A stretch of DNA of 29,555 nucleotides. Origin: a virus. Under the pieces are notes generated by a model, which was given only the letters and a program-made list of their open reading frames with translations, had not been told where the DNA came from and searched no databases. The translations under genes were made by a program, and so were the position numbers. The stretch lies in IMG/VR virus record IMGVR_UViG_3300021964_010180, positions 1-29,555 of that record. One strand, 5' to 3'. This document shows, one piece after another, positions 5,821-24,267 of this stretch; position 1 is the first letter of the stretch; every line of letters begins with the position of its first letter.

Positions 5821-8322
5821 ATGAAATTTTATACAAATATATCTCGCTATGGCAACTCTCTCCTCTACAGAGGGTACGAAAATGGCAAGAAAATATCCAA
5901 ACGAATCAAATACAAACCAACGCTCTTTGTTAGTTCAAATAAGGGTCAGTGGAAATCCATTGACGGTGTGCCCTGCGCGCCAATTGAATTTGAAACTATG
6001 CGAGAAGCCAAAACTTGGATAGAAGAAAACAAACACACTGCAGGTCGCCAAATCTTTGGTAACGATCGTTATATACCTGCATTTATTAATGATGAGTTTC
6101 CTGGTGAAATTAAATACAACCGTAACCAAATCAACGTAACAACAATCGATATTGAGGTCCAATCAGACGAGGGATTTCCCCACCCAGACACTGCAAGTTA
6201 TCCTGTGACTGCCATCTGTCTTAAGAATAACATTGACAATACATATTATGTCTGGGGGTGTGGCGATTATAATGTCGCTGAATCCGTAATGAAAACAAAT
6301 CGCGTGGTATACAAAAAGTGCGAATCAGAATTGGAACTCTTTCAATTATTCCTTGCTCATTGGTCTACTCCAAGTCATTGTCCAGATGTAATCACTGGTT
6401 GGAATGTTCGCTTCTTTGATATTCCTTATATCATTAATCGATCAATTAAAATACTAGGTGAGGACCTAACAAAGAAATTCAGTCCCTGGAATATGATCGA
6501 ACCAGGCACAGTCCGTAGGGTTAATAGGACCGAGGCAGTCTATGATCTTAAAGGTATCAATACTGCTGATTACCTAGAGCTATTCCAAAAATATACTTAC
6601 ACTGCTCAGGAATCATATCGCCTTGACCATATTGCAAATGTAATACTTGGTGATAAAAAGCTCTCATACGAAGAACATGGTTCCTTATTCGATCTATACA
6701 AAAATGATTACCAAAAATTTATTGATTATAACATTAAAGATGTGGAATTGGTTGATCGACTTGAGGATAAAATGGGTCTAATCACGCTGATGATGACTAT
6801 GGCGTATAAAGGTGGTGTAAACTATTCAGACACATTTGGCGTCACAGCCATATGGGAAACAATCATATATCGTCACCTATACGAACAGAAAATCGCAATA
6901 CCTTTTTATGAGGAGAAAATCAAATCATCATATCCTGGTGGATATGTCAAGGACCCTATGGTTGGAATGCATGATAATGTTGTATCCTTCGACCTTAATT
7001 CACTATATCCATCTTTGATTATGCAATACAATATGTCGACAGAAACAATTGCTGAAGGTGTTGTTGCTCAAATTGATATCGAAAAAATACTAGAAGGACA
7101 ACAAATTAATAATAAAGGTTATTCTGTAGGTGGCAATGGCCAATGCTTCCATACAAGTAAAAAAGGTGTAATGCCAAAACTTGTGGACAATATGTATAGT
7201 GACCGTGTCCAAATTAAAAAGGATATGCTTCAGGCTCAAAAGGACCTACAGACCATTGATAAAACAGACAAACAAAAATTATATGATATTGAACGAAGAA
7301 TATCAGTTGCCGAAAATGAACAGATGGCAATTAAAATTCTCTTAAACAGTCTTTATGGTGCCTTAGGTAACAGGTACTTCCGCTTCTTTGACCAAAGGAT
7401 TGCAGAGGCAATTACCCTATCTGGTCAATTAACAATTCGTTGGGCAGAGGTTGCCATTAACAAATATTTAAATAATATATTGCAAACAAAGGATAAGGAC
7501 TATGTTATTGCCATCGATACTGATTCGCTATATGTTTCACTTGATGGTTTGGTTAAAGCAGTCAATCCAGATGATCCTATTAATTTTATGGATAAGGTTT
7601 GCCAGGATAAATTGGAACCTGTATTACAGAAATCATATGAACAACTATATCAACTAATGGGTGGTATTGAAAATCGTATGGTTATGAAACGAGAAGCCAT
7701 AGGCGACCGTGCCATATGGACAGCCAAAAAGAGATATATCCTTAATGTACATGATAACGAGGGTGTTCGATATTCAGAGCCTAAACTTAAAATTATGGGT
7801 ATTGAGGCCATCAAATCCAGTACACCAGCCACTTGTCGTGATGCACTAAAGGAACTATTCAAGGTTATAATGCAAGGTAGTGAAAGGCAAACACAAATTG
7901 CCATTGAACAATTTAAAACATATTTCTGTACGTTGCCTGCCCACGATGTTGCATTTCCAAGAGGTGTTTCAAAGGTTTCTGATTATAGTGCGAAGGATAC
8001 AATTTATCGCAAAGGCACGCCGATGCATGTCCGAGCCGCCTTGTTGCATAATCATCAACTTAAGGTCCATGGTCTGACCAGAAAATATGAACCAATTAAG
8101 AATGGAGACAAAACAAAATTTGTTTATCTTAAAACACCAAATCCTATCCACGAGAACGTGGTTGGCTTTACTCAATATCTGCCTAAGGAATTTGGTCTAA
8201 ATAACTATATTGATTATGAAACTCAATTTCAAAAAACCTTCTTGGATCCTATCGAACATATTCTGAAGGCCGTAGGTTGGTCATCAGAAGAGGTTCAATC
8301 TTTGGAGGATTTTTTCGGATGA
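5821..8322 (+). CDS. 43: DNA polymerase gp43 (family B)
   Basis: 833-aa replicative polymerase with 3'-5' proofreading (T4 gp43 is 898 aa). Exo I is TTIDIEVQSDE with D110/E112, Exo II ITGWNVRFFDIPYI, Exo III YNIKDVELVDRL. Polymerase motif A is SFDLNSLYPS (D391), motif B KILLNSLYG (K505), motif C AIDTDSLYV (D566, D568). All catalytic residues are present and the C-terminus ends in an acidic, hydrophobic tail (EEVQSLEDFFG) like the gp45-binding tail of gp43. It follows a strong early promoter with no leader, so translation must start without a Shine-Dalgarno. Its stop overlaps the methyltransferase ATG. Confidence 0.98.
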   Translation: MKFYTNISRYGNSLLYRGYENGKKISKRIKYKPTLFVSSNKGQWKSIDGVPCAPIEFETMREAKTWIEENKHTAGRQIFGNDRYIPAFINDEFPGEIKYNRNQINVTTIDIEVQSDEGFPHPDTASYPVTAICLKNNIDNTYYVWGCGDYNVAESVMKTNRVVYKKCESELELFQLFLAHWSTPSHCPDVITGWNVRFFDIPYIINRSIKILGEDLTKKFSPWNMIEPGTVRRVNRTEAVYDLKGINTADYLELFQKYTYTAQESYRLDHIANVILGDKKLSYEEHGSLFDLYKNDYQKFIDYNIKDVELVDRLEDKMGLITLMMTMAYKGGVNYSDTFGVTAIWETIIYRHLYEQKIAIPFYEEKIKSSYPGGYVKDPMVGMHDNVVSFDLNSLYPSLIMQYNMSTETIAEGVVAQIDIEKILEGQQINNKGYSVGGNGQCFHTSKKGVMPKLVDNMYSDRVQIKKDMLQAQKDLQTIDKTDKQKLYDIERRISVAENEQMAIKILLNSLYGALGNRYFRFFDQRIAEAITLSGQLTIRWAEVAINKYLNNILQTKDKDYVIAIDTDSLYVSLDGLVKAVNPDDPINFMDKVCQDKLEPVLQKSYEQLYQLMGGIENRMVMKREAIGDRAIWTAKKRYILNVHDNEGVRYSEPKLKIMGIEAIKSSTPATCRDALKELFKVIMQGSERQTQIAIEQFKTYFCTLPAHDVAFPRGVSKVSDYSAKDTIYRKGTPMHVRAALLHNHQLKVHGLTRKYEPIKNGDKTKFVYLKTPNPIHENVVGFTQYLPKEFGLNNYIDYETQFQKTFLDPIEHILKAVGWSSEEVQSLEDFFG

Positions 8323-8885
8323 GATCACTAGAAACATTTAACCAATTAGTTAATCATCATATATTTGAAACAGTACTTGATGTAGGCTCTGGCAACTTTA
8401 CATTTGCTCGTATGTTTCAAGAGAAAGGTAAACAAGTATATACAACTGATATATTAGAATCTGATTATCAAGGAGACTTTAATACAATTGATTTCGATCG
8501 TAGCTTTGATTGTATATGGTGTGCACATACATTAGAACATCAATTGAATGTTCATCATTTTCTTAGTAAGATCTTTCATTTATTAGACACAAATGGAGTT
8601 CTTGCGATATCTGTTCCACCACTTAAACACAATATTGTAGGTGGACATGTTTCATTATGGAACGGCGGATTATTACTATATAATTTAATACTTGCTGGTT
8701 TTGATTGTAGTGAGGCAAGTGTAAAACAATATGGATATGATATATCTATTGTTGTACAAAAGAAAGAGGCAATATTGCCTGAATTAAACTATGATCATGG
8801 AGACATTGAGGTACTTGCTAAGTTCTTTCCTATGAAAGTAAAGCAAGGATTTCATGGACAATTAGATGAAATTAATTGGAAATAA
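8319..8885 (+). CDS. SAM-dependent methyltransferase, class I
   Basis: 188-aa protein starting at the ATG that overlaps the gene 43 stop (ATGA), with GGAGG about 12 bases upstream. Motif I is TVLDVGSGNFTFA (about 18-30), an acidic residue follows at YTTD (about 44), and motif IV-V reads DCIWCAHTLEH then LLDTNGVLAISVPP, the Methyltransf_11 arrangement. The substrate cannot be told from sequence; small-molecule, sugar or modified-base substrates are all possible. A longer frame exists upstream inside gene 43 but its start is TTG without support. Translational coupling to gp43 is likely. Confidence 0.82.
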   Translation: MRSLETFNQLVNHHIFETVLDVGSGNFTFARMFQEKGKQVYTTDILESDYQGDFNTIDFDRSFDCIWCAHTLEHQLNVHHFLSKIFHLLDTNGVLAISVPPLKHNIVGGHVSLWNGGLLLYNLILAGFDCSEASVKQYGYDISIVVQKKEAILPELNYDHGDIEVLAKFFPMKVKQGFHGQLDEINWK

Positions 8886-8888
8886 GGG

Positions 8889-8917
8889 TTTACAAATGTG
8901 TCTAAATATAGTATAAT
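8889..8917 (+). promoter_or_regulatory. Early promoter
   Basis: TTTACA 8889-8894, 17-bp spacer, TATAAT 8912-8917. The transcript would have a short leader with GGAG before the ATG at 8939. Confidence 0.88.
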
Positions 8918-8938
8918 ATACCAACATGGAGAAAAAAA

Positions 8939-9214
8939 ATGGAATTAATTAGATTATCCTCAGGCGAGGAAGTGATAGGAAATGTTACCGATAATGGAAA
9001 TGATATAACTATCAAAGATGGCTACTCTCTGCTTCCAGCAGGAGAAGGCAAAATAGGCTTTATGCCTTTTATGGCTTATACAAAGGCTAAAGATGGAATC
9101 ACAATCGATAAAAGATTTGTGGTGTTTATAGTAGAACCTGCTACGGAATTAGCTGACCAGGTGAGGCAAATGGATACAGGATTAACAGTACCAAAAAATA
9201 AAATTATAACATAA
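8939..9214 (+). CDS. Sm-like small barrel protein
   Basis: 91-aa protein opening with MELIRLSSGEEVIGNVT, the Sm1-like pattern of LSm folds (a strand, then SGEE-I-G), followed by ITIKDGYSLLP, GKIGFMPFMAYTKAKDG and a strand RFVVFIVEPA. Proteins of this type are common in marine myoviruses as Sm-like hypothetical proteins. Known Sm folds form rings binding U- or A-rich RNA, but ring formation here is inference. It is the first gene after an early promoter and overlaps the glycosyltransferase start by one base. Confidence 0.72.
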   Translation: MELIRLSSGEEVIGNVTDNGNDITIKDGYSLLPAGEGKIGFMPFMAYTKAKDGITIDKRFVVFIVEPATELADQVRQMDTGLTVPKNKIIT

Positions 9215-10149
9215 TGCAATCAAAATATCCAATATACATTATTTCAAAGGGTAGAGCCGACAGCCGGCTAACAGTCAAATCTATGGAAGAGATTGGAGCA
9301 ATGTATCGTATTGTAATTGAGGAATCTGAATACGATGATTATGCTGCAGTTATTCCAAAAGAGAATATACTCACAGTACCAACAGATTTTAGAGATAATC
9401 CAAACTGGGCAAGAAGATGTGAGGTTACAGGTCATTTAGGTGGTTCAATACCAGTTCGTAACTGGGTTTGGGAACACTCAATAAAAGAGGGTCACAAACG
9501 ACACTGGATATTAGATGATAATATGCAACACTTCTATCGTTTGCATAATAATAAAAAAATACAAATGACTACGCCAACAGGTTTTAGAGCATGTGAGGAC
9601 TTTGCAGATAGGTATACCGATGTAAAAATGTTTGGTATGAACTATGCATTCTTTGCTCCTTCAACTACTAAACGCCCACCTTACTATCACAATACAAGAG
9701 TTTACAGCTGTATATGTTTATCAAATGATATATACCCAGAACTATATTGGAGAGGTAGATACAACGAGGATACTGATTTATCATTAAGAGTAATGAAATC
9801 AGGATATCACACATTATTGTTTAATGCTTTCTTGTGTGGTAAAGTTGCATCGATGGCAATGAAAGGTGGTAATACTGAAGAGGTATACAATATTCAAAAA
9901 GTAGGTGGAGTTGATACTAGAGCAGGTAGTGAGGGATTTGATAACAGATTAACCTTTGCACAATCTCTTAAAGATCAACACCCTGATGTGGTACATATAA
10001 CACAGAAATGGGGTAGGTACCATCACCATGTTGATTATAAAACATTTCAAAAGGGTATTAAACCTACTTTAAAAGAAGGACTAAATATAACTAAAGGTCC
10101 AAACAATTATGGATTAAAACTAGTAAGACTCAAGGAGAAAAAAGTATGA
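9214..10149 (+). CDS. TET-associated-type DNA glycosyltransferase
   Basis: 311-aa protein matching the TAGT (TET/JBP-associated glycosyltransferase) family. Motifs in order: SKGRADSRLT (11-20), YDDYAAVIP (40-48), RHWILDDNM (96-104, the DxD-like nucleotide-sugar site), the signature RGRYNEDTDLSLRV (180-193) and MKGGNTEE (216-223). Family members are encoded beside TET dioxygenases or hydroxymethyl-pyrimidine pathways and transfer sugars to hydroxymethylated bases in phage DNA. No TET or hydroxymethylase gene is in this window. UDP-sugar enzymes 3 kb downstream could provide the donor. Cytoplasmic; complete by length. Confidence 0.85.
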   Translation: MQSKYPIYIISKGRADSRLTVKSMEEIGAMYRIVIEESEYDDYAAVIPKENILTVPTDFRDNPNWARRCEVTGHLGGSIPVRNWVWEHSIKEGHKRHWILDDNMQHFYRLHNNKKIQMTTPTGFRACEDFADRYTDVKMFGMNYAFFAPSTTKRPPYYHNTRVYSCICLSNDIYPELYWRGRYNEDTDLSLRVMKSGYHTLLFNAFLCGKVASMAMKGGNTEEVYNIQKVGGVDTRAGSEGFDNRLTFAQSLKDQHPDVVHITQKWGRYHHHVDYKTFQKGIKPTLKEGLNITKGPNNYGLKLVRLKEKKV

Positions 10150-10466
10150 GTAGAAATAATAAAACTTTAAACTATCAACCTGAAAATCTATTCGTAGTAA
10201 CAGGACAAGAGGATCAAGCAACACCTTATGATTGGGATGGAATGCCTGAATTTAATCAACCTGAAGCAGAAGCTTGGAAGGTACTAAAGGTCAGATTTCG
10301 TAACGAAGAGGATTTAAGAGAGTTTGCTGAAAAGATTGATCAAACAAATATCACTACTAAAACAAAGGGTATTTGGTTCCCACCAGCTGATAAAACAGCT
10401 AACAGTCTGCTCCGATATATGGACGAGAGTCAAATAGACGATAATGTCCAGGAGATTGTGGAATAA
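10146..10466 (+). CDS. Conserved protein with W-GMPEF motif
   Basis: 106-aa protein with YDWDGMPEFNQPEAEAWKVLKV, then FRNEEDLREFAEKIDQ and TTKTKGIWFPP. I recognise this W-x-GMPEF ... F-x-x-EED ... KT-x-x-IWFP layout from small phage and mobile-element proteins near ParB-like or DNA-modification genes, but no function is known to me. Four-base overlap with the glycosyltransferase and direct abutment to the next ATG place it in the modification operon, possibly as an accessory subunit (inference). Confidence 0.65.
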   Translation: MSRNNKTLNYQPENLFVVTGQEDQATPYDWDGMPEFNQPEAEAWKVLKVRFRNEEDLREFAEKIDQTNITTKTKGIWFPPADKTANSLLRYMDESQIDDNVQEIVE

Positions 10467-11252
10467 ATGTCGGAATTTCTACAATTAAAAGGTAAGAAGT
10501 TACTTGATACCTTTTTAGATGATTATAAAAGCATTTGTAATGTTGATGATACCTTTTTAGATATAACAAAAAATTATATTAAAACAAACGAAAGGTTTGA
10601 CTATCTAACTGAGTTATGGTATAAGAGATTAAATGCTGATGATTTAGATGGCGCGTATGAGGTCTATAGTGATAAACATTATCTCACAGACCAATTTAAT
10701 TGCTTTAGAGTTTATGCAAGAGCTTATTTAAGGGCGATGAGTAAGTCTACAAAGCTAATTGAACAACCATTGAACGAATTTACTGGAGACGCAACATCAA
10801 TTGTGGATGTAGGAAATGGTATTGGTTATTCAACCACCATATTATCTCAGCTCTATCCTAATCTAAAAACATATGGTACTAATTTGCCTAACACAGACCA
10901 GTGGAAATTTGCTACCGAAATGGGTAGAAGGCATAATTTTACTATGGTAGAAGATGTGGTCGAAATACCAGAGCGAGGTGGTTTGGTATTTGCATCTGAA
11001 TACTTTGAGCACTTTTTAGATCCAATCAGCCATGTTGAACATATCATAGACGCAATCGAACCAAAGTATTTTGTTATTGCTAATGCATTTAATACTTGGT
11101 CAATAGGTCATTTTGAATCATATGATGTAAAGGGTGAAACAATACCACAAGAACGCATCAGCAGAATGTTTAATAAAAGGCTAAGGGATCTAGGCTATAC
11201 TCAAGTCCAAACTGGACTCTTTAATAGAAAGCCAAATATATGGAAAAAATAG
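10467..11252 (+). CDS. Methyltransferase-fold protein
   Basis: 261-aa protein. Residues 1-105 are a helical N-terminal domain. A Rossmann methyltransferase core follows: SIVDVGNGIGYSTTILSQL (about 111-129), a TYGTNLP strand at the acidic-loop position, and GLVFASEYFEHFLDPISHVEHII (about 170-192). The glycine loop is DVGNGIG rather than the usual DxGxGxG, but should still bind a nucleotide. It starts immediately after the previous stop. Position in the glycosyltransferase operon suggests action on a modified base or nucleotide, but small-molecule targets are equally possible. Confidence 0.68.
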   Translation: MSEFLQLKGKKLLDTFLDDYKSICNVDDTFLDITKNYIKTNERFDYLTELWYKRLNADDLDGAYEVYSDKHYLTDQFNCFRVYARAYLRAMSKSTKLIEQPLNEFTGDATSIVDVGNGIGYSTTILSQLYPNLKTYGTNLPNTDQWKFATEMGRRHNFTMVEDVVEIPERGGLVFASEYFEHFLDPISHVEHIIDAIEPKYFVIANAFNTWSIGHFESYDVKGETIPQERISRMFNKRLRDLGYTQVQTGLFNRKPNIWKK

Positions 11253-11253
11253 G

Positions 11254-11282
11254 TTTACATTTGCTCAGTTTTGTGGTATAAT
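11254..11282 (+). promoter_or_regulatory. Early promoter (leaderless downstream gene)
   Basis: TTTACA 11254-11259, 17 bp, TGG-TATAAT 11277-11282; the ATG follows seven bases later at 11290. No Shine-Dalgarno. Confidence 0.9.
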
Positions 11283-11289
11283 ATACTAT

Positions 11290-12219
11290 ATGATTTCGGG
11301 TACACTATTCCAATCTATCTTCGATAACAAAACCGATAAAGGTATTGAACTACCTGATTTTCAGCACTTTGAAGAAGTATTATATAAACTTGCTAAGAAG
11401 AAACGCAAGGGTAAAAAAGATGCTGAATTAATGTCTCCTGCAATATATATTAAAAATACCACCAGAGCTAATGATAATGTTACAAGCTGGGGTGGTTGGT
11501 GTGCAGTAGATGTTGATAATTATGAAGGTAATGTAAATGATTTAAAAGCATGGTTACAGAATAAATGTAATAATCATTATTTTGTTTGCTATTCTACAGC
11601 CTCGTCCACAGAAGCTAATCCAAAATTTAGGTTGGTTTTTCCTCTTACACGAGAGGTTCCAAGCCATGAAATCAAACACTTTTGGTTTGCCCTAAACAAA
11701 GAACTAGGCGAGGTTGGTGATATTCAAACTAAGGACTTATCACGTATGTATTATATTCCAGGCACATATAAAGATGCTTATAATTTTATATTTACATCTG
11801 AGGGTAATATTATGGACCCAGCACTCATTATGTCAAAACATGAATACATAGAGAGCTCTGGTAATACTATGTTCGATAGGCTTCCAAAGAAAATGCAAGA
11901 AGCCATGATGGAACATATGAAAAATAGGCTCACCAATACTGATGTTAAATGGACAGGATATAAGGATTGTCCATTTTTTCCTAAATCATTGGAACAAGAC
12001 TATCGCACAATATCTGGTACAGGTTGGTATCACAAAATGTATCAAATCATGGTTGCTCTTGCTGGTAATGCAATTAAAAATAATTATCCAATTACAGCAT
12101 CTGAAATCGCATATCTCTGTAGAGAACTAGATATTGACACAGGAAACTGGTATGCCAAAAGAGCTCTTGATAAAGAAGCAGAAAGAGCTTTGGAATATGT
12201 TTACAAAAATCAATTTTAA
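11290..12219 (+). CDS. Primase-polymerase (AEP-like) protein
   Basis: 309-aa protein. The region at about 70-120 has the layout of archaeo-eukaryotic primase/Rep-type domains: CAVDVDN (D74, D76 as metal ligands), then FVCYSTASST, and PKFRLVFPLTRE, where the serine/histidine-type strand and R-x-x-F-P are expected. A KDLSRMYYIPGTY motif (about 150) matches the S-R-x-(Y/W)-x-x-P segment following the catalytic core. The C-terminal 100 residues form a helical domain similar to primase-helicase linkers. No helicase domain is fused. Possible roles are primer synthesis beside gp41 or gap filling. Expected to be translated from a leaderless mRNA. Confidence 0.55.
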   Translation: MISGTLFQSIFDNKTDKGIELPDFQHFEEVLYKLAKKKRKGKKDAELMSPAIYIKNTTRANDNVTSWGGWCAVDVDNYEGNVNDLKAWLQNKCNNHYFVCYSTASSTEANPKFRLVFPLTREVPSHEIKHFWFALNKELGEVGDIQTKDLSRMYYIPGTYKDAYNFIFTSEGNIMDPALIMSKHEYIESSGNTMFDRLPKKMQEAMMEHMKNRLTNTDVKWTGYKDCPFFPKSLEQDYRTISGTGWYHKMYQIMVALAGNAIKNNYPITASEIAYLCRELDIDTGNWYAKRALDKEAERALEYVYKNQF

Positions 12220-12228
12220 TGGTATAAT
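12200..12228 (+). promoter_or_regulatory. Early promoter of ugd (leaderless)
   Basis: TTTACA 12200-12205, 17 bp, TATAAT 12223-12228, lying inside the end of the preceding gene. The ATG at 12235 is six bases after the -10. No ribosome site. Confidence 0.9.
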
Positions 12229-12234
12229 ATACTA

Positions 12235-13401
12235 ATGAAAAATATAACAGTAGTTGGATCAGGATATGTTGGTATGGCAAATGGAGTTGCTCTATCACAG
12301 CAGAATAATGTTATTATATTGGATATCAATTCTGAACGAGTAAATAAAATCAGAAACAATGAATCACCGATAGAGGACAAGCTTATCACTGAATTTTTAA
12401 ACTCAGAAGATTTAACACTTACAGCTTCTACTAATAAAGAAACCGCTTATAATCATGCTGATTATGTTATTGTAGCTACTCCAACAGATTATTGCCCTAT
12501 ACGAAATTATTTTAATACCGAATCAGTGGAGTCTGTAATAGAAGATGCATTGGAAAAATGTAAAGGATATATTATAATTAAATCAACGGTTCCTGTTGGG
12601 TTTACTAAACGAATGAATGAAAAGTTTGAAACTGATAGGATATTATTCAGCCCAGAGTTTTTAAGGGAAGGCAGAGCACTCTTTGATTGTTTGAATCCTA
12701 GTAGGATTGTTGTTGGAGGTAAAACTAAAGCGGCCAAAGCTTTTGCCAAACTCTTATCAAATGTGGCAATAAAAGAATCACCAGTAATATTAACTCACTG
12801 GACTGCTGCAGAGGCAATTAAACTATTTGCAAATGATTACCTAGCCATGCGTGTTGCTTATTTTAATGAAGTGGATATATATGCAGAATACCATAAACTG
12901 AATGCAAAAGATATTATTGATGGTATGTGCTATGACGATAGAATAGGACAGGGGTATAATAATCCATCTTTTGGTTATGGTGGTTATTGTTTTCCTAAGG
13001 ATACAAAACAATTATTGGCAAACTATGATGAGAATCTAATACCCAATCGTTTGGTAGGTTCAATCGTTCATTCAAATGAAATTAGAAAAGATTGGATTAC
13101 CAACCAAATATTAAGAAGGAATCCAAATGTTGTTGGTATATACAGAATGGCTATGAAAGCTGGTTCAGATAACTATAGAAGCTCAGCGATCGAGGGGATT
13201 ATAAAAAGATTATCGGCACGAGTCAAAGTGATTATATATGAACCAATGTGTAATGACGAGGAGTTCCTAGGTTGTATATTGGAAACAGATCTAAATAAAT
13301 TTAAGAAGTTAAGTGATACTATTGTTGCAAATAGGCTCGATGATGATATCGCAGATGTAAATGAAAAAGTCTATACGAGAGATATATATGGAGACAACTA
13401 A
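12235..13401 (+). CDS. ugd: UDP-glucose 6-dehydrogenase
   Basis: 388-aa NAD-dependent enzyme converting UDP-glucose to UDP-glucuronate. The N-terminal Rossmann motif is ITVVGSGYVGMANGVAL (4-20), followed by IVATPTDY, IIKSTVPVG and FSPEFLREGRA. The central helix (AAEAIKLFANDYLAMRVAYFNE) and catalytic cysteine C252 in GYGGYCFPKD are intact, as is the C-terminal domain (GIYRMAMKAGSDNYRSSA). Length is normal for the bacterial family. It overlaps the following sugar-nucleotide SDR, so the pair should make a UDP-glucuronate-derived sugar. Best explained as donor supply for the glycosyltransferase at 9214; surface-polysaccharide synthesis is the alternative. Confidence 0.95.
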   Translation: MKNITVVGSGYVGMANGVALSQQNNVIILDINSERVNKIRNNESPIEDKLITEFLNSEDLTLTASTNKETAYNHADYVIVATPTDYCPIRNYFNTESVESVIEDALEKCKGYIIIKSTVPVGFTKRMNEKFETDRILFSPEFLREGRALFDCLNPSRIVVGGKTKAAKAFAKLLSNVAIKESPVILTHWTAAEAIKLFANDYLAMRVAYFNEVDIYAEYHKLNAKDIIDGMCYDDRIGQGYNNPSFGYGGYCFPKDTKQLLANYDENLIPNRLVGSIVHSNEIRKDWITNQILRRNPNVVGIYRMAMKAGSDNYRSSAIEGIIKRLSARVKVIIYEPMCNDEEFLGCILETDLNKFKKLSDTIVANRLDDDIADVNEKVYTRDIYGDN

Positions 13402-14245
13402 TATATTAGTTATTGGAGGTGCTGGCTTTGTTGGTTCAGCACTATGTAAGCAATTAGAAGCTGAAGGACATAATGTTACTTCGTTGGATAACTATTTCAC
13501 TGGTAGTAAATTAAACCACCATGATGGAATAGAATACATCGAGGGAACACCACATGATTTAACAGAGCTTTGGTCTGAACCAGTTTTTGATTATGTGTTT
13601 CACTTAGGTGAATATGCAAGGGTTGAACAAAGCTTTAATGATTTTGATACTGTAATGAGTTCGAATTATCATCAGTTTCCAAAGGTGTTGGAATTCTGTA
13701 AGCTACAGGATGCTAAATTAATTTATTCTGGTTCATCCACTAAATTTTCAGTAGGTGAAGATGGACAAGCTATGAGTCCTTATGCCTATACAAAAGCAAA
13801 TAACACTAACCTACTACAAAATTATGCCAAATGGTATGGATTAGATTATACCATTGTATATTTCTATAATGTCTATGGTGATCACGAGATTGGACAAGGC
13901 AAATATGCAACAGTGGTTGCTAAATTCTTGGATATAGTCAAAGGTGGCCACAGAACATTACCTGTAACTTCTCCAGGAACACAGCTCAGAAACTTTACTC
14001 ACATTGATGATATTGTGGCTGGATTAATATTGGCTGGATTCCAAGGTAGTGGCGACGGTTATGGTATTGGATCTGATGAAAAATATTCGATATTAGATTT
14101 GGTAGAAATGCTAAAAGCACAACCTATTATGACAGAAGAGAAACCAGGTAATAGAATGGACGGTGTACTAAAAACAGAAAAGCTAAAAGAGCTTGGTTGG
14201 TCATGTCAGAGATCATTACCAGAATATATTAAAGGAAAATTATGA
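13388..14245 (+). CDS. NAD-dependent nucleotide-sugar epimerase/decarboxylase (extended SDR)
   Basis: 285 aa from the ATG at 13388 (a start 27 bases earlier lacks a ribosome site). GGAGFVGSAL (10-19) is the NAD-binding GxxGxxG. The catalytic set is a SGSSTKFS serine/threonine region and Y132-x-x-x-K136 in SPYAYTKANN, then FYNVYGDHE and the C-terminal R-x-FTHIDDIVAG typical of UDP-sugar 4-epimerases and UDP-glucuronate decarboxylases. Its product (UDP-xylose, UDP-galacturonate, UDP-galactose or other) cannot be decided from sequence. The 14-base overlap with ugd points to a UDP-glucuronate substrate. Confidence 0.87.
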   Translation: METTNILVIGGAGFVGSALCKQLEAEGHNVTSLDNYFTGSKLNHHDGIEYIEGTPHDLTELWSEPVFDYVFHLGEYARVEQSFNDFDTVMSSNYHQFPKVLEFCKLQDAKLIYSGSSTKFSVGEDGQAMSPYAYTKANNTNLLQNYAKWYGLDYTIVYFYNVYGDHEIGQGKYATVVAKFLDIVKGGHRTLPVTSPGTQLRNFTHIDDIVAGLILAGFQGSGDGYGIGSDEKYSILDLVEMLKAQPIMTEEKPGNRMDGVLKTEKLKELGWSCQRSLPEYIKGKL

Positions 14246-15304: not shown

Positions 15305-15994
15305 ATGTTTAAAAATGATTATAATACTATACCTGGAGCCTTTTGGGAAACCTTAGGGCAATATGTATATGGTTATAAAGAAGATGGTAATTTTGTATAT
15401 GTTGGAAAGGGTAATGGCAACAGAGCTCTTTCGCATGTCGGTAGTAAAGAATATAATACTGATAACCTATACATTATTGCTAGAAACCTTGAACGATTTG
15501 AGGAGAAAAAGGACTATCAATCTTTTCTACTTGAATCATATTTAATATCAAGTAACAGCCCCAGAGATAACTCAGTCTCTGGACATTATAAGGAGTGTTT
15601 TATTATGGCAAAAATGAGTGAATTATTTAATGAATTCGAAAAGAGTCAACATGACAATTTCGAGGTATTACCAGATTGGTATGTGGAAAATTATAATATA
15701 TTTAAAGGTAGATTAAATGTATTTGTGGTTAAATCACATCATCATCTTTTAGAGTTTGAGACAACTCATAAAATGCAACCTGTTTTAGAGATTACTACTG
15801 ACGATGAGGTATCACTAAAGGTTCAAATACATGCAAGAGACGAGGTATTGGAAACCAGAAAAGAACAATTATATACCTTCTGTGAGCAATTGGGCATACA
15901 GGACCTTGAAGAGGTTGGAGTCAGAAATCATTTCCAAATTGGAGTAGAAGATAAGGAAATGGCATTTAAATTTATCGAGGACTTTTATTCGTAA
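15305..15994 (+). CDS. GIY-YIG nuclease-domain protein
   Basis: 229-aa protein. The N-terminal domain has YVYGY (20-24), then VYVGKGNGNRALSH (31-44), which is the GIY-(x)-YIG core with the typical GKG-x-GNRA-x-xH extension, and a candidate catalytic glutamate in FLLESYLI (E77). The C-terminal 130 residues are unrecognised and may bind DNA. It resembles stand-alone phage GIY-YIG nucleases (LEM3/Seg-like). The ATG is chosen because the expected transcript begins almost at it. Its stop overlaps the next gene. Confidence 0.72.
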   Translation: MFKNDYNTIPGAFWETLGQYVYGYKEDGNFVYVGKGNGNRALSHVGSKEYNTDNLYIIARNLERFEEKKDYQSFLLESYLISSNSPRDNSVSGHYKECFIMAKMSELFNEFEKSQHDNFEVLPDWYVENYNIFKGRLNVFVVKSHHHLLEFETTHKMQPVLEITTDDEVSLKVQIHARDEVLETRKEQLYTFCEQLGIQDLEEVGVRNHFQIGVEDKEMAFKFIEDFYS

Positions 15995-16443
15995 TGAAAA
16001 TGAAAAATCCTAAAATCGGATTTACAGCTTCTACATTTGACCTATTACACTCGGGTCATGTTGCCATGTTAAGAGAAGCAAAAACTGCATGTGATTATTT
16101 AATCTGTGCATTACAAAATGATCCATCGATTGATCGACCAGAAAAAAACAAACCAGTCCAAAACATTGTTGAACGCCAAGCTCAACTGGCTGCAATTAAA
16201 TATGTAGACGAAATATTGGTCTATAATACAGAAGCAGAACTATTGGATATCTTATCAATGTATCACATAGATGTTAAAATTATGGGCGAAGAATATCGCA
16301 ATAAAGATTTCACAGGTAGAGAATTATGCCAAGAACGAAACATTGAATTTTATTTCAACAAAAGAGATCACAGATTCTCTACAAGCGATTTGAGAAAACG
16401 AGTCACAGAAAGTGGTTTACAAAAGCCCAAAGATGTGGTATAA
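15994..16443 (+). CDS. Cytidylyltransferase-like nucleotidyltransferase
   Basis: 149-aa protein of the HxGH nucleotidyltransferase superfamily, closest in layout to TagD/glycerol-3-phosphate cytidylyltransferases: GFTASTFDLLHSGHVAMLREAK (9-30) with HSGH at 19-22, a LICALQNDPS strand, and the C-terminal RFSTSDLRKRV (about 126-136) matching the STT(S)-x-x-x-R motif. It should transfer CMP (or AMP) to a phosphorylated small molecule, giving a CDP-activated compound. Common in marine T4-like phages. The early promoter for bS21 overlaps its 3' end. Confidence 0.82.
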   Translation: MKMKNPKIGFTASTFDLLHSGHVAMLREAKTACDYLICALQNDPSIDRPEKNKPVQNIVERQAQLAAIKYVDEILVYNTEAELLDILSMYHIDVKIMGEEYRNKDFTGRELCQERNIEFYFNKRDHRFSTSDLRKRVTESGLQKPKDVV

Positions 16444-16471: not shown

Positions 16472-16738
16472 ATGCCAAGTATTGATTTAAGTCCTCGACC
16501 GAGGCGACCTAAGGATAGGCGACCATCAACACCAATGCCGTTTGATATAGCTTTAAGAAAATTTAAAAAGGCAGTCGAAAAAGCTGGTATCGTACAAGAA
16601 GTACGTGACCGACAATACTATGAGAAACCAGCTCAAAAGAAACAAAGAAAAAAAGCAGAAGCTATTGCTAGAAACAGAAGAGCTCAAAGAGCAGATTCAA
16701 TAGCAAGATCACCAAGGCACTACGGAGGAAAAAGATAA
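16472..16738 (+). CDS. rpsU: Ribosomal protein bS21 homologue
   Basis: 88-aa, very basic protein. Residues 22-68 match bS21: [48 protein letters not shown], parallel to the bacterial PFDVALRRFKR ... EKAG ... EV-RRE-YEKPTxxRKRKKA-A pattern. Extra proline/arginine-rich tails lie at both ends ([21 protein letters not shown]). bS21 sits on the 30S platform near the anti-Shine-Dalgarno and is loosely bound, so a phage copy can exchange into host ribosomes. The gene stands first in the operon with uvsX and gene 41, with a strong ribosome site. Confidence 0.9.
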
Positions 16739-17805
16739 TGTCAGTAATGGATAAATTAAAAAAGAATAGTAAAATTAAATTTACATCACAATTAGATGAA
16801 TCAGAATTTTTTACACAAAAGGATGTAGTAACAACTGAGGTGCCTATGATTAATGTTGCCTTATCTGGTGATATTGATGGAGGGTTAAGCTCTGGTCTTA
16901 CAGTATTGGCTGGACCAAGTAAACACTTTAAAACTTCATTTGCCTTATTAATGGCAGGTGCTTATTTAAAAGAGCATGAAGATGCTGTATTATTATTCTA
17001 TGATTCAGAATTTGGCTCACCCCAATCATATTTTGAATCATTTGGTATTGATACTTCAAGAGTATTACACACCCCTATTGTTGATGTTGAACAATTAAAG
17101 TTTGATTTGGTTGGTCAATTAGAAAACCTAGACAGAGAAGATAAGGTTGTTGTAGTGATTGATTCAATTGGTAACCTTGCATCTAAGAAAGAATTGGAAG
17201 ATGCTTTAAATGAAAAATCAGTTGCAGATATGTCAAGAGCTAAAGCATTAAAGGGATTATTCCGAATGGTTACACCTTATCTTACCATGAAAAACATTCC
17301 TCTACTTGCTGTGAATCATACTTATCAAGAGATTGGGTTATTCCCTAAATCAATCGTTTCAGGTGGAACAGGGATTTATTACTCAGCTGATAACATTTGG
17401 ATTATAGGTAGGAGACAAGTCAAAAAGGGTACTAATGTACAAGGTTATGACTTTGTAATCAATGTAGAAAAATCAAGGTTTGTAAAAGAAAAATCTAAGG
17501 TACCTATCAGTGTTACTTGGGAAGGCGGTATTGCAGAATATTCTGGACTATTAGAAGTAGCAATGGCTGGTGGCTATGTGGTAAAACCAACAATGGGCTG
17601 GTATGCTGCAGTGGATAAAGAGACTGGAGAAATTATCGAACCAAAAGTTAGAGAAAAAGATACTGTTACAGAAGCTTTCTGGACTCCTATTTTTGAAACC
17701 ACAGACTTTAAAGAATTTGTTAAATCATATTATTCAATTGGACATAAGCCAATGCTTGAAATAGATTTAGAAAGCACTTTACAAGGGGAAGAGGATAGTG
17801 TATAA
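16738..17805 (+). CDS. uvsX: UvsX recombinase (RecA family)
   Basis: 355-aa strand-exchange protein (T4 UvsX is about 390 aa). Walker A is the UvsX-type GPSKHFKTS (59-67), then LLFYDSEFGSP (the catalytic-Glu region), VVVVIDSIGNLASKKE (Walker B) and the SVADMSRAKALKGLFR and LLAVNHTYQEIGLF segments with loop-2-like VSGGTGIYYSADNIWII. It forms filaments on ssDNA for recombination-dependent replication. It overlaps bS21 by one base, and its 3' end contains a further early-type promoter. Confidence 0.96.
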   Translation: MSVMDKLKKNSKIKFTSQLDESEFFTQKDVVTTEVPMINVALSGDIDGGLSSGLTVLAGPSKHFKTSFALLMAGAYLKEHEDAVLLFYDSEFGSPQSYFESFGIDTSRVLHTPIVDVEQLKFDLVGQLENLDREDKVVVVIDSIGNLASKKELEDALNEKSVADMSRAKALKGLFRMVTPYLTMKNIPLLAVNHTYQEIGLFPKSIVSGGTGIYYSADNIWIIGRRQVKKGTNVQGYDFVINVEKSRFVKEKSKVPISVTWEGGIAEYSGLLEVAMAGGYVVKPTMGWYAAVDKETGEIIEPKVREKDTVTEAFWTPIFETTDFKEFVKSYYSIGHKPMLEIDLESTLQGEEDSV

Positions 17806-17806: not shown

Positions 17807-18160
17807 ATAACAGAAGCGGATTATTCTATTGTAGAAAATCCACAATCCGAGTTCCATGGAGTTAAACTTAAAACAGGAACTTGGAAAGATGTAATAATAA
17901 TCTATGGTGCTGTATCAGTCAAGGAATCCCCAGACTTAGATATGGCAACCCTAGGGTTTACTTTTACAATACAGGACCCAGCTGACCATGACTTTGATCA
18001 GTTAAATGAAGATGAAGCATTTAAAAATTACTTGGGTTCTGTATTGCAACATATTATTACCGACAGTTTAGAATGGGGACAAGAAAATAATTTATCAAGG
18101 ATAGGAATTGGAAATAACGAATCAACTACAGACACACATACTGAATCACCTTCTGAATAA
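17798..18160 (+). CDS. Small acidic protein between uvsX and 41
   Basis: 120-aa acidic protein read from a GTG at 17798 (GGGGAAGAGG upstream), overlapping uvsX by eight bases and gene 41 by 53. The fold looks like a mixed sheet (HGVKLKTGTWKDVIIIYGAVSVKE; LGFTFTIQDPAD) followed by a helix and an unstructured Thr/Ser-rich tail (NNESTTDTHTESPSE). In T4 the gene at this place is 40, but I see no resemblance to its product. Equivalent genes are frequent in marine T4-like phages; function unknown. Confidence 0.7.
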   Translation: MYNITEADYSIVENPQSEFHGVKLKTGTWKDVIIIYGAVSVKESPDLDMATLGFTFTIQDPADHDFDQLNEDEAFKNYLGSVLQHIITDSLEWGQENNLSRIGIGNNESTTDTHTESPSE

Positions 18161-19499
18161 CGAAGAGTATTGCAGAAGAGTTGTACCATATTTAAAGCAT
18201 GATTATTTCGAAGGCACGCATAAGGTTGTCTTTGATTTAATTACTAAATTTGTACACGAACATAATAATTTACCAACATCTAAGGTATTACAATTAGAGC
18301 TAAGAAAGGTTAGCGCGCCAGATGAAATTCTAAACAATGCCGCAACACTTATTAATGAAATCGCTGTAAAAACAGATGTTGATACAGAATACCTAATTCG
18401 CGAATCTGAAAAGTGGTGTAAGGACCGAGCAGTCCATCTTGCCATTATGGATTCAATTGGTATTATTGATGGTAGAGATAAGGAACGAACAGAGGGTTCA
18501 ATACCAGAAATACTATCAACAGCTCTAGGTGTTTCCTTTGACCAACAGATAGGTCATGATTATATTGATGATTCAGATGAGCGGTTTGACTTTTATAATA
18601 CCAAAGAGGATCGAACTCCATTTGATTTAGATTATTTCAATAAAATTACAAAAGGTGGATTACCTAATAAAACCTTAAATATTGCTCTTGCAGGGACTGG
18701 TGTAGGTAAATCGTTGTTTATGTGTCATTGCGCCGCATCAGTCCTACAGCAAGGCAAAAATGTTTTATATATTACCATGGAAATGGCAGAAGAGCGAATC
18801 GCAGAGCGTATCGATGCCAACCTAATGGATCTACCTATTGAACAACTACAAAGAATTGGCAAAACAGCCTTTGATTCTAAAATACAAAAAATTGCACAGG
18901 CGTCTATTGGTAAACTTATTATTAAAGAGTATCCAACAGGCGCAGCTCATACAGGTCATTTTAGAGCTTTACTTAATGAGCTTAAAATGAAAAAGAACTT
19001 CAAACCTGATATGATTTACATTGATTATTTAAACATATGTTCCTCTAGTCGCATGCGTGGGCTTGGAGGGAGTATAAATAGTTATTCGTACATCAAAGCC
19101 ATTGCAGAGGAATTGCGTGGACTTGCTGTCGAATTTAATGTACCGATCGTGTCTGCAACTCAGACCACTAGGTCAGGCTTCAGTAATACTGATGTTGGGC
19201 TTGAAGATACATCGGAATCATTTGGTTTACCTGCTACGGCAGACCTTATGTTTGCTCTTATATCAACAGAGGAACTAGAGGAACTTGGCCAATTACTGGT
19301 AAAACAATTGAAAAATCGTTATAACGATCCAACCAAATATAAGAGATTTGTAATTGGTATTGATCGTTCCCGCATGAAACTATATGATGTAGAGGAGTCG
19401 GCTCAAGCAGACATTATGTCTGATCCTATTCCGGATAAGCCGATAAACAAGTTTGGTGATCGTGACTCGGAAGATACTTTCGCCAACTTTAAAATATAA
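18108..19499 (+). CDS. 41: Replicative helicase gp41 (DnaB family)
   Basis: 463-aa 5'-3' hexameric helicase (T4 gp41 is 475 aa). The N-terminal domain (HILNHLLNNEEYCRRVVPYL, YFEGTHKVVFDLI) is of gp41 type. The RecA-like domain has Walker A LAGTGVGKSLFM (about 196-207), the DnaB H1a-like YITMEMAEERIAERI, Walker B DMIYIDYLNIC, and SATQTTRSG. The start is a TTG at 18108 preceded by AAGGATAGGA; no other in-frame start retains the N-terminal domain. It overlaps the previous gene by 53 bases. With a primase it forms the T4-type primosome; no gp61-like gene is visible in this window. Confidence 0.94.
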   Translation: MEITNQLQTHILNHLLNNEEYCRRVVPYLKHDYFEGTHKVVFDLITKFVHEHNNLPTSKVLQLELRKVSAPDEILNNAATLINEIAVKTDVDTEYLIRESEKWCKDRAVHLAIMDSIGIIDGRDKERTEGSIPEILSTALGVSFDQQIGHDYIDDSDERFDFYNTKEDRTPFDLDYFNKITKGGLPNKTLNIALAGTGVGKSLFMCHCAASVLQQGKNVLYITMEMAEERIAERIDANLMDLPIEQLQRIGKTAFDSKIQKIAQASIGKLIIKEYPTGAAHTGHFRALLNELKMKKNFKPDMIYIDYLNICSSSRMRGLGGSINSYSYIKAIAEELRGLAVEFNVPIVSATQTTRSGFSNTDVGLEDTSESFGLPATADLMFALISTEELEELGQLLVKQLKNRYNDPTKYKRFVIGIDRSRMKLYDVEESAQADIMSDPIPDKPINKFGDRDSEDTFANFKI

Positions 19500-21555: not shown

Positions 21556-23016
21556 ATGCGTAAATTTAGTAGCTTTTATCCAAGTCTAATAGAAGATATT
21601 AATACTCTTAAGTATACTGGTAATGATAATCCTTTTGTTATAGCCATACTAGAAGATATAGACAATCAAATTGGTGGCATTAAAACCGTAATTGAAATTG
21701 ATTTAAGAGCCGGAAAGTCCAGTGGTAAAAAGCTTGGTATATCTCAGCAAATGCCAGATAAGGACCGAAATAAGTATGCTGGTTTGGCTAAGGTAATTAT
21801 TAACGAGCATCCCGACCTTGAATTATTAATGGATAATGTCCCAGGGTCCAGAAAAGAAAAAGATTATGCATTTAAACATAAGGATATGGAAAAATATGTT
21901 TATGTGAATGTGCGACCAATCGGTGGCCGTGGTTCATTAGGCGATGACCCACATGAACTAATGACAGCTGCACTTTGTGTGTTTCCACAAAAACATAAAA
22001 TCAATGACTCCAACGAAATGGATAAACTCATTGAAATGGTAAGGGCGCAATTAGGAAAGGTAAAAGGATATAAACAAGGCCAAGTTGATTCACTTGTGGG
22101 TAATTATTCTAATCTTTGTCAAGCAGTCTCGGCTGCAAACGCAATTATAGATGCTGGGTATGGTAATGCTGATATGGTTTATTTAACAGGCCAAGCATGG
22201 GACGATGATGTAAAGCAATTCCAAATGACAAAATACGGAATGAAAGATTTTAACTCTTCTGATTTTATTATTAGAAAAGGTAACAACTTTGTTGGTATAT
22301 CATTAAAGAAAAAGAAAAGAGTAACAGAAACCGACCCAACATTAATTAATAAGGCATTCACGGGATTACTTGCAGATAAAAAGTTCGATAAATTAAGAGC
22401 TCAAATTGACAAGGATGCTGGAGCCTTTTATTTACATGTTATTAAGGTTGCAATGAAAACAAAAATATTGTCTCCAGAGTTAATGAAGGACATTAAAAAG
22501 GATAAACCAACAATTAAAAATTGGAAACAATTTATCCAAAGAATTGATAATCAATTAGTTAATAGAGTATTAAAAGGTAAAAGAACACTTTTTAAAACTA
22601 TGGCTACAACCATTGATAAAAATAGTGATATGATTGCAAACCAATTAGTGCAATTAATATTTAAATCAGACCTCAAGGAATTAAAAAAGGTTAACTTTGA
22701 TTTTGCTCTTGTTACTGGTGTAGGTGACTATGGGCCATCAAAAGGAGTTGTCGTAGAGAAGGGAGAATATAAAGATATTGAAACCACAACAACAAAGCTT
22801 GATGATTTATTCTCAGGTGGTAAAGCTAAAATGATTTTAACACCAGGGGCAAAACAAGCTTTTGATATTGGAGCAACTGCAGCAAATTTAAAATTTGATC
22901 TTGTGGTTGGTAAAACAACAATTGCAAATATTACATTAAGATATAAAGGTGATTTTAGATCAGCACCTAATTTTAATGCAGTGGCAACAAATGAATTTAA
23001 GGCATTATTAAAATGA
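21556..23016 (+). CDS. Large cassette protein, possible PD-(D/E)xK-like core
   Basis: 486-aa protein. The N-terminus MRKFSSFYPSLIE-D fits the capsid-targeting pattern with LIE as a cleavage site. A conserved-looking block DPHELMTAALCVFP (131-144) precedes a segment SSDFIIRKGNNFVGISLKKKK (234-254) laid out like the D-x(n)-(E/S)-x-K centre of restriction-type nucleases (D236, S249, K251), with serine replacing the usual acidic residue. The remainder is helical with a beta-rich C-terminus. Equivalent proteins occur in marine T4-like genomes as hypotheticals. The nuclease idea is weak inference. First gene of the cassette; its stop overlaps the next ATG. Confidence 0.7.
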   Translation: MRKFSSFYPSLIEDINTLKYTGNDNPFVIAILEDIDNQIGGIKTVIEIDLRAGKSSGKKLGISQQMPDKDRNKYAGLAKVIINEHPDLELLMDNVPGSRKEKDYAFKHKDMEKYVYVNVRPIGGRGSLGDDPHELMTAALCVFPQKHKINDSNEMDKLIEMVRAQLGKVKGYKQGQVDSLVGNYSNLCQAVSAANAIIDAGYGNADMVYLTGQAWDDDVKQFQMTKYGMKDFNSSDFIIRKGNNFVGISLKKKKRVTETDPTLINKAFTGLLADKKFDKLRAQIDKDAGAFYLHVIKVAMKTKILSPELMKDIKKDKPTIKNWKQFIQRIDNQLVNRVLKGKRTLFKTMATTIDKNSDMIANQLVQLIFKSDLKELKKVNFDFALVTGVGDYGPSKGVVVEKGEYKDIETTTTKLDDLFSGGKAKMILTPGAKQAFDIGATAANLKFDLVVGKTTIANITLRYKGDFRSAPNFNAVATNEFKALLK

Positions 23017-24248
23017 AATCACTAACTAACTATTTAGCCGAAGCCAAGAATACACATATGGTCCATTTGGAGGACCTTATCTTGGACGGCGGAGTTAAGG
23101 GGGCACGCCAAGCTATCCTAGCGCTAAGATCACTGAGGGATATGTTGAGCGGTAACACCAAAGCACCTGTAGATGTTACTGTCAAGTGGGACGGTGCCCC
23201 CGCCTTATTCGCTGGAGAGGATCCAAGAGATGGACAATTCTTTGTAGCGAAGAAAGGAATCTTTAATGCCAATCCAAAGGTATATAAAAACCATGCTGAT
23301 ATTGATGCAGATACATCTGGCGATTTATCTAAAAAATTAAAAATAGCATTCGATAACCTAAAAGGACTTGGAATTAAAGATGTAATCCAAGGGGACTTTA
23401 TGTTTGATAAAAGTGATTTGAAGAAGGAGAAAATAAATGGAATTAATCATATTACTTTCCATCCCAATACTATATTGTATGCGATACCTCTTGGCACACC
23501 GCTCGCAAAAGAGATTGAAAAAGCAGAGGTAGGTATTGTATGGCATACATCGTATAGTGGTTCTGATTTTGAAAATATGAAAGCTGAGTTTGGCAAAGAT
23601 ATAGTATCAAAAATTAGACCATCATCAAAGGTATGGATGCAAGATGCAACATTAAAGGATTTATCAGGTACTGCAACGCTGACCCAACAGGATAGCTTAT
23701 TAGTGTCAAAGAAATTATCAGATGCTGGTAAAATATTCCAAAAGATTGCAAGTAGCACACTCAAAGAGATAGAGTCAAATAAGGAATTAAATTTAGTTAT
23801 TAATGTATATAATAACACTATGGTACGAAAGGGGCAAAGAATAGCAAATACAAAGAAACACGCACAAGGTCTAATTCAATTTGTAACCGATAGGTATGCA
23901 AAAGAAATAGGAAAACGTAGTTCGCAGAAAGGAAAGGATGTACAAATACAAAAACGTGATCAATTATTATCGTTTTTTTCTAAAAGTAACCTAAAAAACC
24001 TTGAAAATATATTCATTTTACAGAATTTAGTGATAGATAGTAAATTAATTATTATAAATAAACTAAACAGGTTGTCAAAAATTGGCACGTTTGTTAAAAC
24101 TAAATCCGGATTTAAGGTGACCAACCCAGAAGGTTTTGTCGCCATAGATCGAATGGAAGGTGGTGCTGTTAAATTAGTAGATAGGATGGAATTCTCTACT
24201 AATAACTTCAGCAAAGATATTATAAAAGGCTGGGATAATCCAGGCTAA
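23013..24248 (+). CDS. DUF6267-type protein with nucleotidyltransferase (ligase/capping) motifs
   Basis: 411-aa protein. After a targeting-like N-terminus MKSLTNYLAE-AK it has VTVKWDGAPAL (56-65), which reads as motif I (KxDG, K58) of ATP-dependent ligases and capping enzymes. VIQGDFMF (124-131) fits motif III, VGIVWHT (173-179) a possible IIIa, EGFVAID (373-379) motif IV and AVKLVDR (385-391) motif V. Order and spacing suit a covalent nucleotidyltransferase, although the long III-IV gap indicates an insertion. I associate the whole protein with DUF6267, which has no known activity. The ligase-like assignment is mine from motifs and needs structural support. Confidence 0.65.
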   Translation: MKSLTNYLAEAKNTHMVHLEDLILDGGVKGARQAILALRSLRDMLSGNTKAPVDVTVKWDGAPALFAGEDPRDGQFFVAKKGIFNANPKVYKNHADIDADTSGDLSKKLKIAFDNLKGLGIKDVIQGDFMFDKSDLKKEKINGINHITFHPNTILYAIPLGTPLAKEIEKAEVGIVWHTSYSGSDFENMKAEFGKDIVSKIRPSSKVWMQDATLKDLSGTATLTQQDSLLVSKKLSDAGKIFQKIASSTLKEIESNKELNLVINVYNNTMVRKGQRIANTKKHAQGLIQFVTDRYAKEIGKRSSQKGKDVQIQKRDQLLSFFSKSNLKNLENIFILQNLVIDSKLIIINKLNRLSKIGTFVKTKSGFKVTNPEGFVAIDRMEGGAVKLVDRMEFSTNNFSKDIIKGWDNPG

Positions 24249-24267
24249 TGGGAAACCGAGGATATAT

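Follow-up and report, generated by a model that had tools for sequence, protein, structure and literature searches.

A stretch of 29,555 bases, IMG/VR record IMGVR_UViG_3300021964_010180 (the window in the following), is a fragment of a T4-like marine virus and carries, in the interval between the genes for DNA polymerase and UvsX, a glycosyltransferase of the TAGT family, a W-GMPEF protein, a UDP-glucose 6-dehydrogenase (Ugd) and an extended short-chain dehydrogenase/reductase (SDR). In our judgement the balance tips slightly towards this region being a phage DNA-glycosylation module that would come with its own supply of a sugar derived from UDP-glucuronate (UDP-GlcA). The argument is built on the identities of the genes, on the recurrence of the module, on a partnership between W-GMPEF and TAGT, on the exchange of the gene in one slot and on a common early promoter. 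What we infer from these observations is DNA as the acceptor, a UDP-GlcA-derived sugar and an epimerase step.

The TAGT protein was recognized with 144.5 bits against a Pfam cut-off of 27.5 bits, and the PF20691 profile was covered over its full length (1-205 of 205). The family owes its name to a TET/JBP dioxygenase partner. The W-GMPEF protein (10146-10466) gave no match in Pfam and PHROG searches, and its AlphaFold model (predicted local distance difference test, pLDDT, 67; predicted template modelling score, pTM, 0.34) was too poor for a fold search. Viral contigs were scanned for W-GMPEF with a degenerate DNA motif, independently of TAGT. TAGT was adjacent or fused in 65 of the 71 open reading frames (ORFs) seeded in this way (63 neighbours and two fusions), and several of the remaining six were located at contig ends. 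When the loci were seeded with TAGT instead, W-GMPEF adjoined it in 71 of 80. In several phages the W-GMPEF region forms the N-terminus of TAGT itself: Kuja has two such copies, and POP12, Aeromonas 65, PTm1, Vibrio 1.076.O and Vibrio 1.124.O show the same arrangement, no Ugd or SDR being seen beside it in Pectobacterium phage POP12 or Aeromonas phage 65. A ParB_N-like protein adjoining TAGT carries the region as its C-terminus in contigs L197-L200 and L069. The W-GMPEF protein is best seen as a detached N-terminal module of TAGT, and W-GMPEF as an unannotated obligate partner domain of this family.

Searches for the module were seeded independently from TAGT, SDR and W-GMPEF; seeding with TAGT yielded 226 viral relatives, and 80 of these were retained. 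The T4-like clade to which the window belongs keeps the order TAGT - W-GMPEF - slot - primase - Ugd - SDR. Elsewhere the same components are rearranged to TAGT - W-GMPEF - SDR - Ugd (L046-L050, L058, L060), to W-GMPEF - TAGT - SDR - Ugd (L175-L186, L197-L200) or to TAGT - W-GMPEF - Ugd - nucleotidyltransferase - SDR (L171). These rearranged loci carry a short Ugd that is about 23-28% identical and lacks the C-terminal part, and adjacency of TAGT, SDR and Ugd was also found outside the polymerase-uvsX interval (L046-L050, L171, L197-L200). Ugd was present in 13 of the 23 TAGT-seeded loci having at least 6.5 kb downstream. Seeding with SDR gave 51 loci, 33 with TAGT no more than 6 kb away and 34 with Ugd; several of those without TAGT are fragments beginning at Ugd or SDR. 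Among 67 distant loci seeded with the polymerase, TAGT occurred in only two, both close relatives of the window (L095, L099). In a phylogeny of 38 TAGTs the module label changes seven times, at least four changes being forced by well-supported branches, compared with a mean of 13.1 for shuffled labels. These label changes indicate that the adjacency of TAGT, Ugd and SDR arose or was lost several times. W-GMPEF/TAGT, SDR and Ugd form a recurrent module with several gene orders and two unlike Ugd types in otherwise different viruses.

The short Ugd proteins (about 275 residues; L050:12102-12947, L171:8719-9591, L058:12100-12936) retain the catalytic Cys motif and lack the C-terminal UDP-binding part. 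A MazG-like nucleotide pyrophosphohydrolase, read by eye, lies between Ugd and SDR in L019, L021, L026 and L034 and is absent from the window. One locus filed under a Gammaproteobacteria genome (L229) is clearly a T4-like phage contig of the window's clade, with the order GT-B protein, primase, Ugd, MazG, SDR.

The Ugd of the window contains all three UDPG_MGDP_dh domains (PF03721, PF00984 and PF03720; NAD-binding, central and UDP-binding) and is a full-length relative of the UDP-glucose 6-dehydrogenase 3phl (E 6e-137), with the catalytic motifs FSPEFLREG, IKLFAN and FGYGGYCFPKDT present, including the active-site Cys. The SDR family adjoins Ugd also in bacteria such as Capnocytophaga, Marinomonas and Poseidonibacter, with 27 Ugd neighbours counted over about 79 bacterial loci, and its substrate is for this reason probably UDP-GlcA. 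UDP-GlcA decarboxylases have an acidic Glu in place of Ser128 of the epimerase (PMC7984243). The SDR of the window reads Ser-Ser-Thr where the UDP-GlcA 4-epimerase (UGAepi) has Thr-Ser-Ser and decarboxylases have Thr-Ser-Glu. The Glu of the TSE motif of UXS and ArnA is lacking, and an alignment of the SDR profile to UXS 4lk3 places Thr at the position of the decarboxylation Glu. Hydroxyl residues at positions 126-127-128 and the active-site Tyr and Lys of UGAepi, in contrast, are matched by the conserved Ser-Ser-Thr and SPYxxxK. The motif [SA]GSST is nearly invariant in the viral and bacterial copies; HLGEYSRVEQS is a further conserved motif of the SDR. Because Thr replaces the decarboxylase Glu, xylose and arabinose are disfavoured and C4 epimerization is favoured. 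Assignments of the SDR as an RfaD, GalE or RmlB equivalog all stayed under the NCBIfam cut-offs. The first-pass annotation had suggested that the phage makes its own donor, either a uronic acid or a pentose, and that its DNA carries a sugar other than glucose. The uronate supply gains support from the TAGT-Ugd-SDR link recovered from three seeds, whereas the pentose does not agree with the Thr in place of Glu, nor is this the pathway of RB69. A non-glucose sugar appears likely in view of the recurrence over gene orders, the two Ugd types and at least four to seven changes on the TAGT tree.

Expression signals tie the region to replication. The element GGTATAATATACTA has ten matches in the window at no more than two mismatches, compared with 0.5 expected, and ten were reached in no shuffle. 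With TTTACA 17 bases upstream, it precedes the clamp, the polymerase, the unit of the 8939 gene and TAGT, the primase-like gene, Ugd, the 16472-UvsX unit and two later genes; the repeat TTTACA-N17-TATAAT(ATACTA) is found at 1615, 5806, 8910, 11275, 12221, 16437, 20769 and 21527. The ATG follows the -10 element after one or zero bases in the primase-like gene and Ugd, and this close spacing makes leaderless mRNAs likely for both. Judging from the promoter consensus rather than a transcript map, TAGT and Ugd-SDR are probably expressed together with the replication genes, which is what would be expected for DNA modification.

Within the T4-like clade, the position between W-GMPEF and the primase-like gene is a slot with changing occupants. 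It holds the methyltransferase MT2 in the window, L002-L008, L011, L034, L035 and L037, a GT-B protein with weak Glyco_transf_4 matches in L015-L022, L026, L027, L032, L033 and L168, a second TAGT (PF20691, 2e-34) in L013, L014, L023-L025, L036, L038 and L039, and in L028, L031, L040 and L045 a 315-residue protein with a DMD motif, which is without a Pfam match and which we read as DxD glycosyltransferase-like. The slot is empty in L165, L167 and L207. MT2 itself has no Pfam match, while its homologues match Methyltransf_23; a tblastn search with MT2 against the annotated phage collection gave no match. The AlphaFold model (pLDDT 89.7) resembles small-molecule O-methyltransferases (Z about 13), many of which are tied at Z 12-13.5, so that the substrate cannot be read from the fold. 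The slot apparently provides a swappable second decoration. The other occupants resemble glycosyltransferases, and by analogy with them MT2 probably acts on the sugar or its linkage too; any specific target would be speculative. Methylation of the sugar, which had been raised as a possibility at first pass, is plausible, with methyl transfer to the sugar suggested by the slot swap alone.

The window contains a sequence of T4-type replication genes, namely clamp, clamp loader, RegA, DNA polymerase (5821-8322), UvsX (16738-17805) and a gp41-like helicase (18108-19499), and the TAGT/Ugd/SDR region lies in the polymerase-UvsX interval (Table 1). A megablast search of the annotated phage collection with the window gave no match. 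The first four genes of the region (8939-9214, TAGT, W-GMPEF and MT2) abut or overlap, and the 8939-9214 gene is kept upstream of TAGT across the T4-like clade. The longest ORF of the SDR starts at 13361; homologues start at METTN, which corresponds to 13388 and leaves an overlap of about 14 nt with Ugd. Gene order and frames are maintained in dozens of IMG/VR contigs, which argues that these genes are not chance ORFs. The TAGT-family glycosyltransferase, the W-GMPEF protein and the complete Ugd with its overlapping SDR, all named in the first-pass annotation, proved to be real. It had also placed two methyltransferase-fold proteins in the span 9214-14245: MT2 is indeed there, but the other lies upstream of it, and the gene at 11290-12219, which had gone unmentioned, is primase-like. 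The nucleotidyltransferase downstream of the SDR recurs within the compact operon TAGT-WGMPEF-Ugd-NTase-SDR of L171. Farther downstream (23013-25644), the window carries a pair of proteins, DUF6267 and DUF5824/CTP_transf_like, that is conserved in the clade.

Table 1. Genes and predicted promoters in and around the TAGT/Ugd/SDR region (window positions).
Feature	Position	Strand	Basis and remarks
Second methyltransferase	8277-8885		Upstream of the span 9214-14245; seen solely in nearest relatives
Sigma70-type early promoter TTTACA-N17-TATAAT	8889-8923	+	Upstream of the 8939/TAGT/W-GMPEF/MT2 unit; AGTATAATATACCA at 8910, 2 mismatches
91-residue protein, function unassigned	8939-9214	+	phrog_527, E 5e-17; first gene of TAGT unit; 1-nt overlap with TAGT
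TAGT glycosyltransferase (GT-A)	9214-10149	+	PF20691, E 5e-42; phrog_842, 1e-40; DDN motif, residue 101
W-GMPEF protein	10146-10466	+	4-nt overlap with TAGT
MT2, class I S-adenosylmethionine methyltransferase, O-methyltransferase-like, in swappable slot	10467-11252	+	Pfam matches of homologues; AlphaFold; fold match; slot swap
Primase-like gene	11290-12219		phrog_9765, E 5e-46; between TAGT unit and Ugd-SDR
Early promoter TTTACA-N17-TATAAT of Ugd-SDR unit	12200-12234	+	GGTATAATATACTA at 12221, exact; -10 element abuts Ugd ATG
Ugd, UDP-glucose 6-dehydrogenase (UDP-glucose to UDP-GlcA)	12235-13401	+	Three Pfam domains; 3phl match; catalytic motifs
Extended SDR, predicted NAD-dependent C4 epimerase on Ugd product	13388-14245	+	PF01370, E 1e-35; HLGEYSRVEQS and GSST motifs; Ugd neighbour in bacteria
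RfaE/TagD-like nucleotidyltransferase, possible sugar-pathway accessory	15994-16443	+	rfaE_dom_II 1e-21, g3p_cytidyltrns 2e-17, both under cut-off

We propose that Ugd would oxidize host UDP-glucose to UDP-glucuronate and that the SDR would act on this product, most likely by C4 epimerization to UDP-galacturonate. TAGT together with its detached W-GMPEF module would then transfer the uronosyl group to phage DNA, the recipient being either a hydroxylated base or a sugar that the base already carries. A second decoration, such as an O-methyl group or a methyl ester, would come from MT2, while relatives would use other glycosyltransferases from the slot.

Several observations weigh against this proposal. 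Sources of a hydroxylated base were sought in related records with the profiles PF00303, PF12851, PF02511, PF00145 and PF13640. The window and the long TAGT-bearing contigs L171 (165 kb), L181 (170 kb) and L313 (150 kb) yielded neither a hydroxymethylase of the thymidylate synthase (TS) family nor TET, and the hydroxymethylated pyrimidine acceptor that the first reading had assumed, with its suggested search for TET, hydroxymethylase or TS-like genes, is unsupported so far. TET/JBP was absent from the PHROG hits of the window, a 29.5-kb fragment, and from 41 of 42 related records, the single match being in phage C48C1, which has no TAGT. Several relatives encode ThyX and some encode 2-oxoglutarate-Fe(II) oxygenases, but these enzymes are not specific. 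In POP12 and Kuja the TS homologues retain Asn in the (LPF/LNF)N motif and are presumably dUMP- rather than dCMP-type enzymes. No primary DNA glucosyltransferase was seen in the window, and the published role of T-even TAGT is the addition of a second glucose onto an already glucosylated base (PMC13216743). As to the sugar, Arg185 of the B. cereus UGAepi, within the RPDMA motif, binds the carboxylate of UDP-galacturonate (PMC12338863). The SDR of the window has no evident counterpart and by eye reads REIxxGKYAT at that place, and UDP-galacturonate as the product is for this reason only a speculative best guess. Two module-bearing contigs encode divergent ThyX-like proteins of about 300 residues (E about 1e-8; L218:10792-11697 and L226:7169-8068).

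Parts of the module also occur on their own. Phage C48C1 (OQ984149.1), whose UvsX is 74% identical to that of the window, has Ugd and an epimerase without TAGT at the polymerase-uvsX locus, its type of SDR being close to solved UDP-GlcA 4-epimerases (6zl6, E 3e-51, RPDMA present), and other loci share this arrangement; L122 likewise has Ugd and another SDR without TAGT, beside KdsA/KdsB-like genes. Copies of the window's SDR type were found without TAGT or Ugd in L178 and L193, next to RmlB/RmlD-like genes, and the bacterial SDR-Ugd pair sits in polysaccharide-type gene clusters. All this would fit a role of Ugd and SDR as auxiliary metabolic genes that serve surface polysaccharide or lipopolysaccharide of the host or virion glycans, with TAGT putting host UDP-glucose on DNA and the genes being neighbours since the polymerase-uvsX interval collects accessory genes. 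We nevertheless consider this rather unlikely, because TAGT, SDR and Ugd adjoin each other in varied orders, with non-orthologous Ugd and outside that interval, and because they have an early promoter in common with the replication genes. C48C1 may have found a different solution to DNA glycosylation: TET/JBP (PF12851, 3e-17), an unassigned protein and UDP-galactopyranose mutase are encoded in tandem at 49583-53030 (also L083:31584-35031). The KdsA/KdsB-like genes of L122 (14664-16071, by eye) lie in the polymerase-uvsX interval with Ugd, epimerase and an RfaE-like nucleotidyltransferase and could represent a phage Kdo pathway.

If the SDR were instead a UDP-GlcA decarboxylase similar to UXS or ArnA, as in the original suggestion, the DNA would carry xylose or, after epimerization, arabinose. 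Sequence comparison with the PDB places UXS structures among the better matches (E about 1e-17), pentoses are known on the DNA of phages RB69 and Thanatos (PMC6024577, PMC12838424), and disrupted UGAepi variants are able to decarboxylate (PMC12338863). Set against this are the Thr at the decarboxylation Glu in the nearly invariant GSST, the higher score of the GalE-type structure 4zrm and the absence of an adjoining candidate for a UDP-xylose 4-epimerase, so that we give decarboxylation a small chance. Failure to find a base-hydroxylating enzyme in long TAGT-bearing contigs could also mean that TAGT glycosylates a protein or another polymer. This is highly improbable given that T2/T6 TAGT is assigned to DNA (PMC13216743, PMC13390438), that W-GMPEF is also C-terminal in ParB_N-domain proteins adjoining TAGT, and that the genes are grouped, and have a promoter in common, with replication genes. 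Returning to the DNA-glycosylation module, we put forward, tentatively and with some doubt, a widespread phage DNA-glycan assembly line in which TAGT and W-GMPEF would add an acidic hexuronic sugar, either galacturonate or a methylated form of it, a swappable gene would supply the second decoration, and the acceptor base would arise without classical hydroxymethylases. If this is true, a GT-A transferase can place a uronic acid on phage DNA. Such a charged group would have consequences of its own for defences that act through restriction, CRISPR or DNA glycosylases, and the exchangeable second slot looks like a trace left by that arms race.

The polymerase-uvsX interval of T4-like phages is known to harbour DNA-modification genes, such as T4 b-gt and the arabinose module of RB69 (PMC6024577). 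The TAGT of T2/T6 (beta-glucosyl-HMC-alpha-glucosyltransferase, PF20691) belongs to the same transferase family and likewise decorates DNA with sugar in T4-like phages. It adds a second glucose from host UDP-glucose to glucosylated hydroxymethylcytosine (hmC), giving gentiobiosyl-hmC (PMC13216743, PMC13390438), whereas TAGT in the window is accompanied by Ugd and SDR, and hmC synthase and primary glucosyltransferase were not seen there. The arabinosyl-cytosine module of RB69 and other Mosigvirus phages also provides a phage-borne special DNA sugar from the same interval (PMC6024577). It consists of SIS isomerases, an NTP-transferase/kinase fusion, a GT-B arabinosyltransferase and a TS-family 5-hydroxy-dCMP synthase (PMC13390438), without Ugd, SDR or TAGT; conversely, SIS isomerases, the NTP-transferase/kinase fusion and TS-family hydroxylase were not among the PHROG and Pfam hits of the window. 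Bacillus phage SP-15 has a glucuronic acid unit on its DNA and a gene for a UDP-glucose dehydrogenase (PMC5977210); the enzyme is 27% identical to the Ugd of the window. There, however, the sugar is phosphodiester-linked on dihydroxypentyluracil, the gene cluster resembles one for teichuronic acid, and TAGT is not reported. The bacterial Ugd-SDR pairs of Capnocytophaga and others have the same SDR family directly adjoining Ugd, in polysaccharide-type clusters without TAGT. The closest cultured carrier is Vibrio phage Kuja (MN718199), with two fused W-GMPEF-TAGT proteins, an SDR with 48% and a Ugd with 41% identity; it differs in that SDR-Ugd is about 60 kb from TAGT, a thymidylate synthase homologue is present and MT2 was not found. 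Solitary TAGTs without defined function have been reported in 288 of 753 genomes with glycosyltransferase homologues (PMC13216743). A large set of solitary TAGTs is now linked to a specific donor pathway and a partner domain, with Kuja named as a cultured phage. As far as the literature consulted shows, TAGT is not combined with Ugd and an SDR of the window's type in the T-even phages, RB69 or SP-15.

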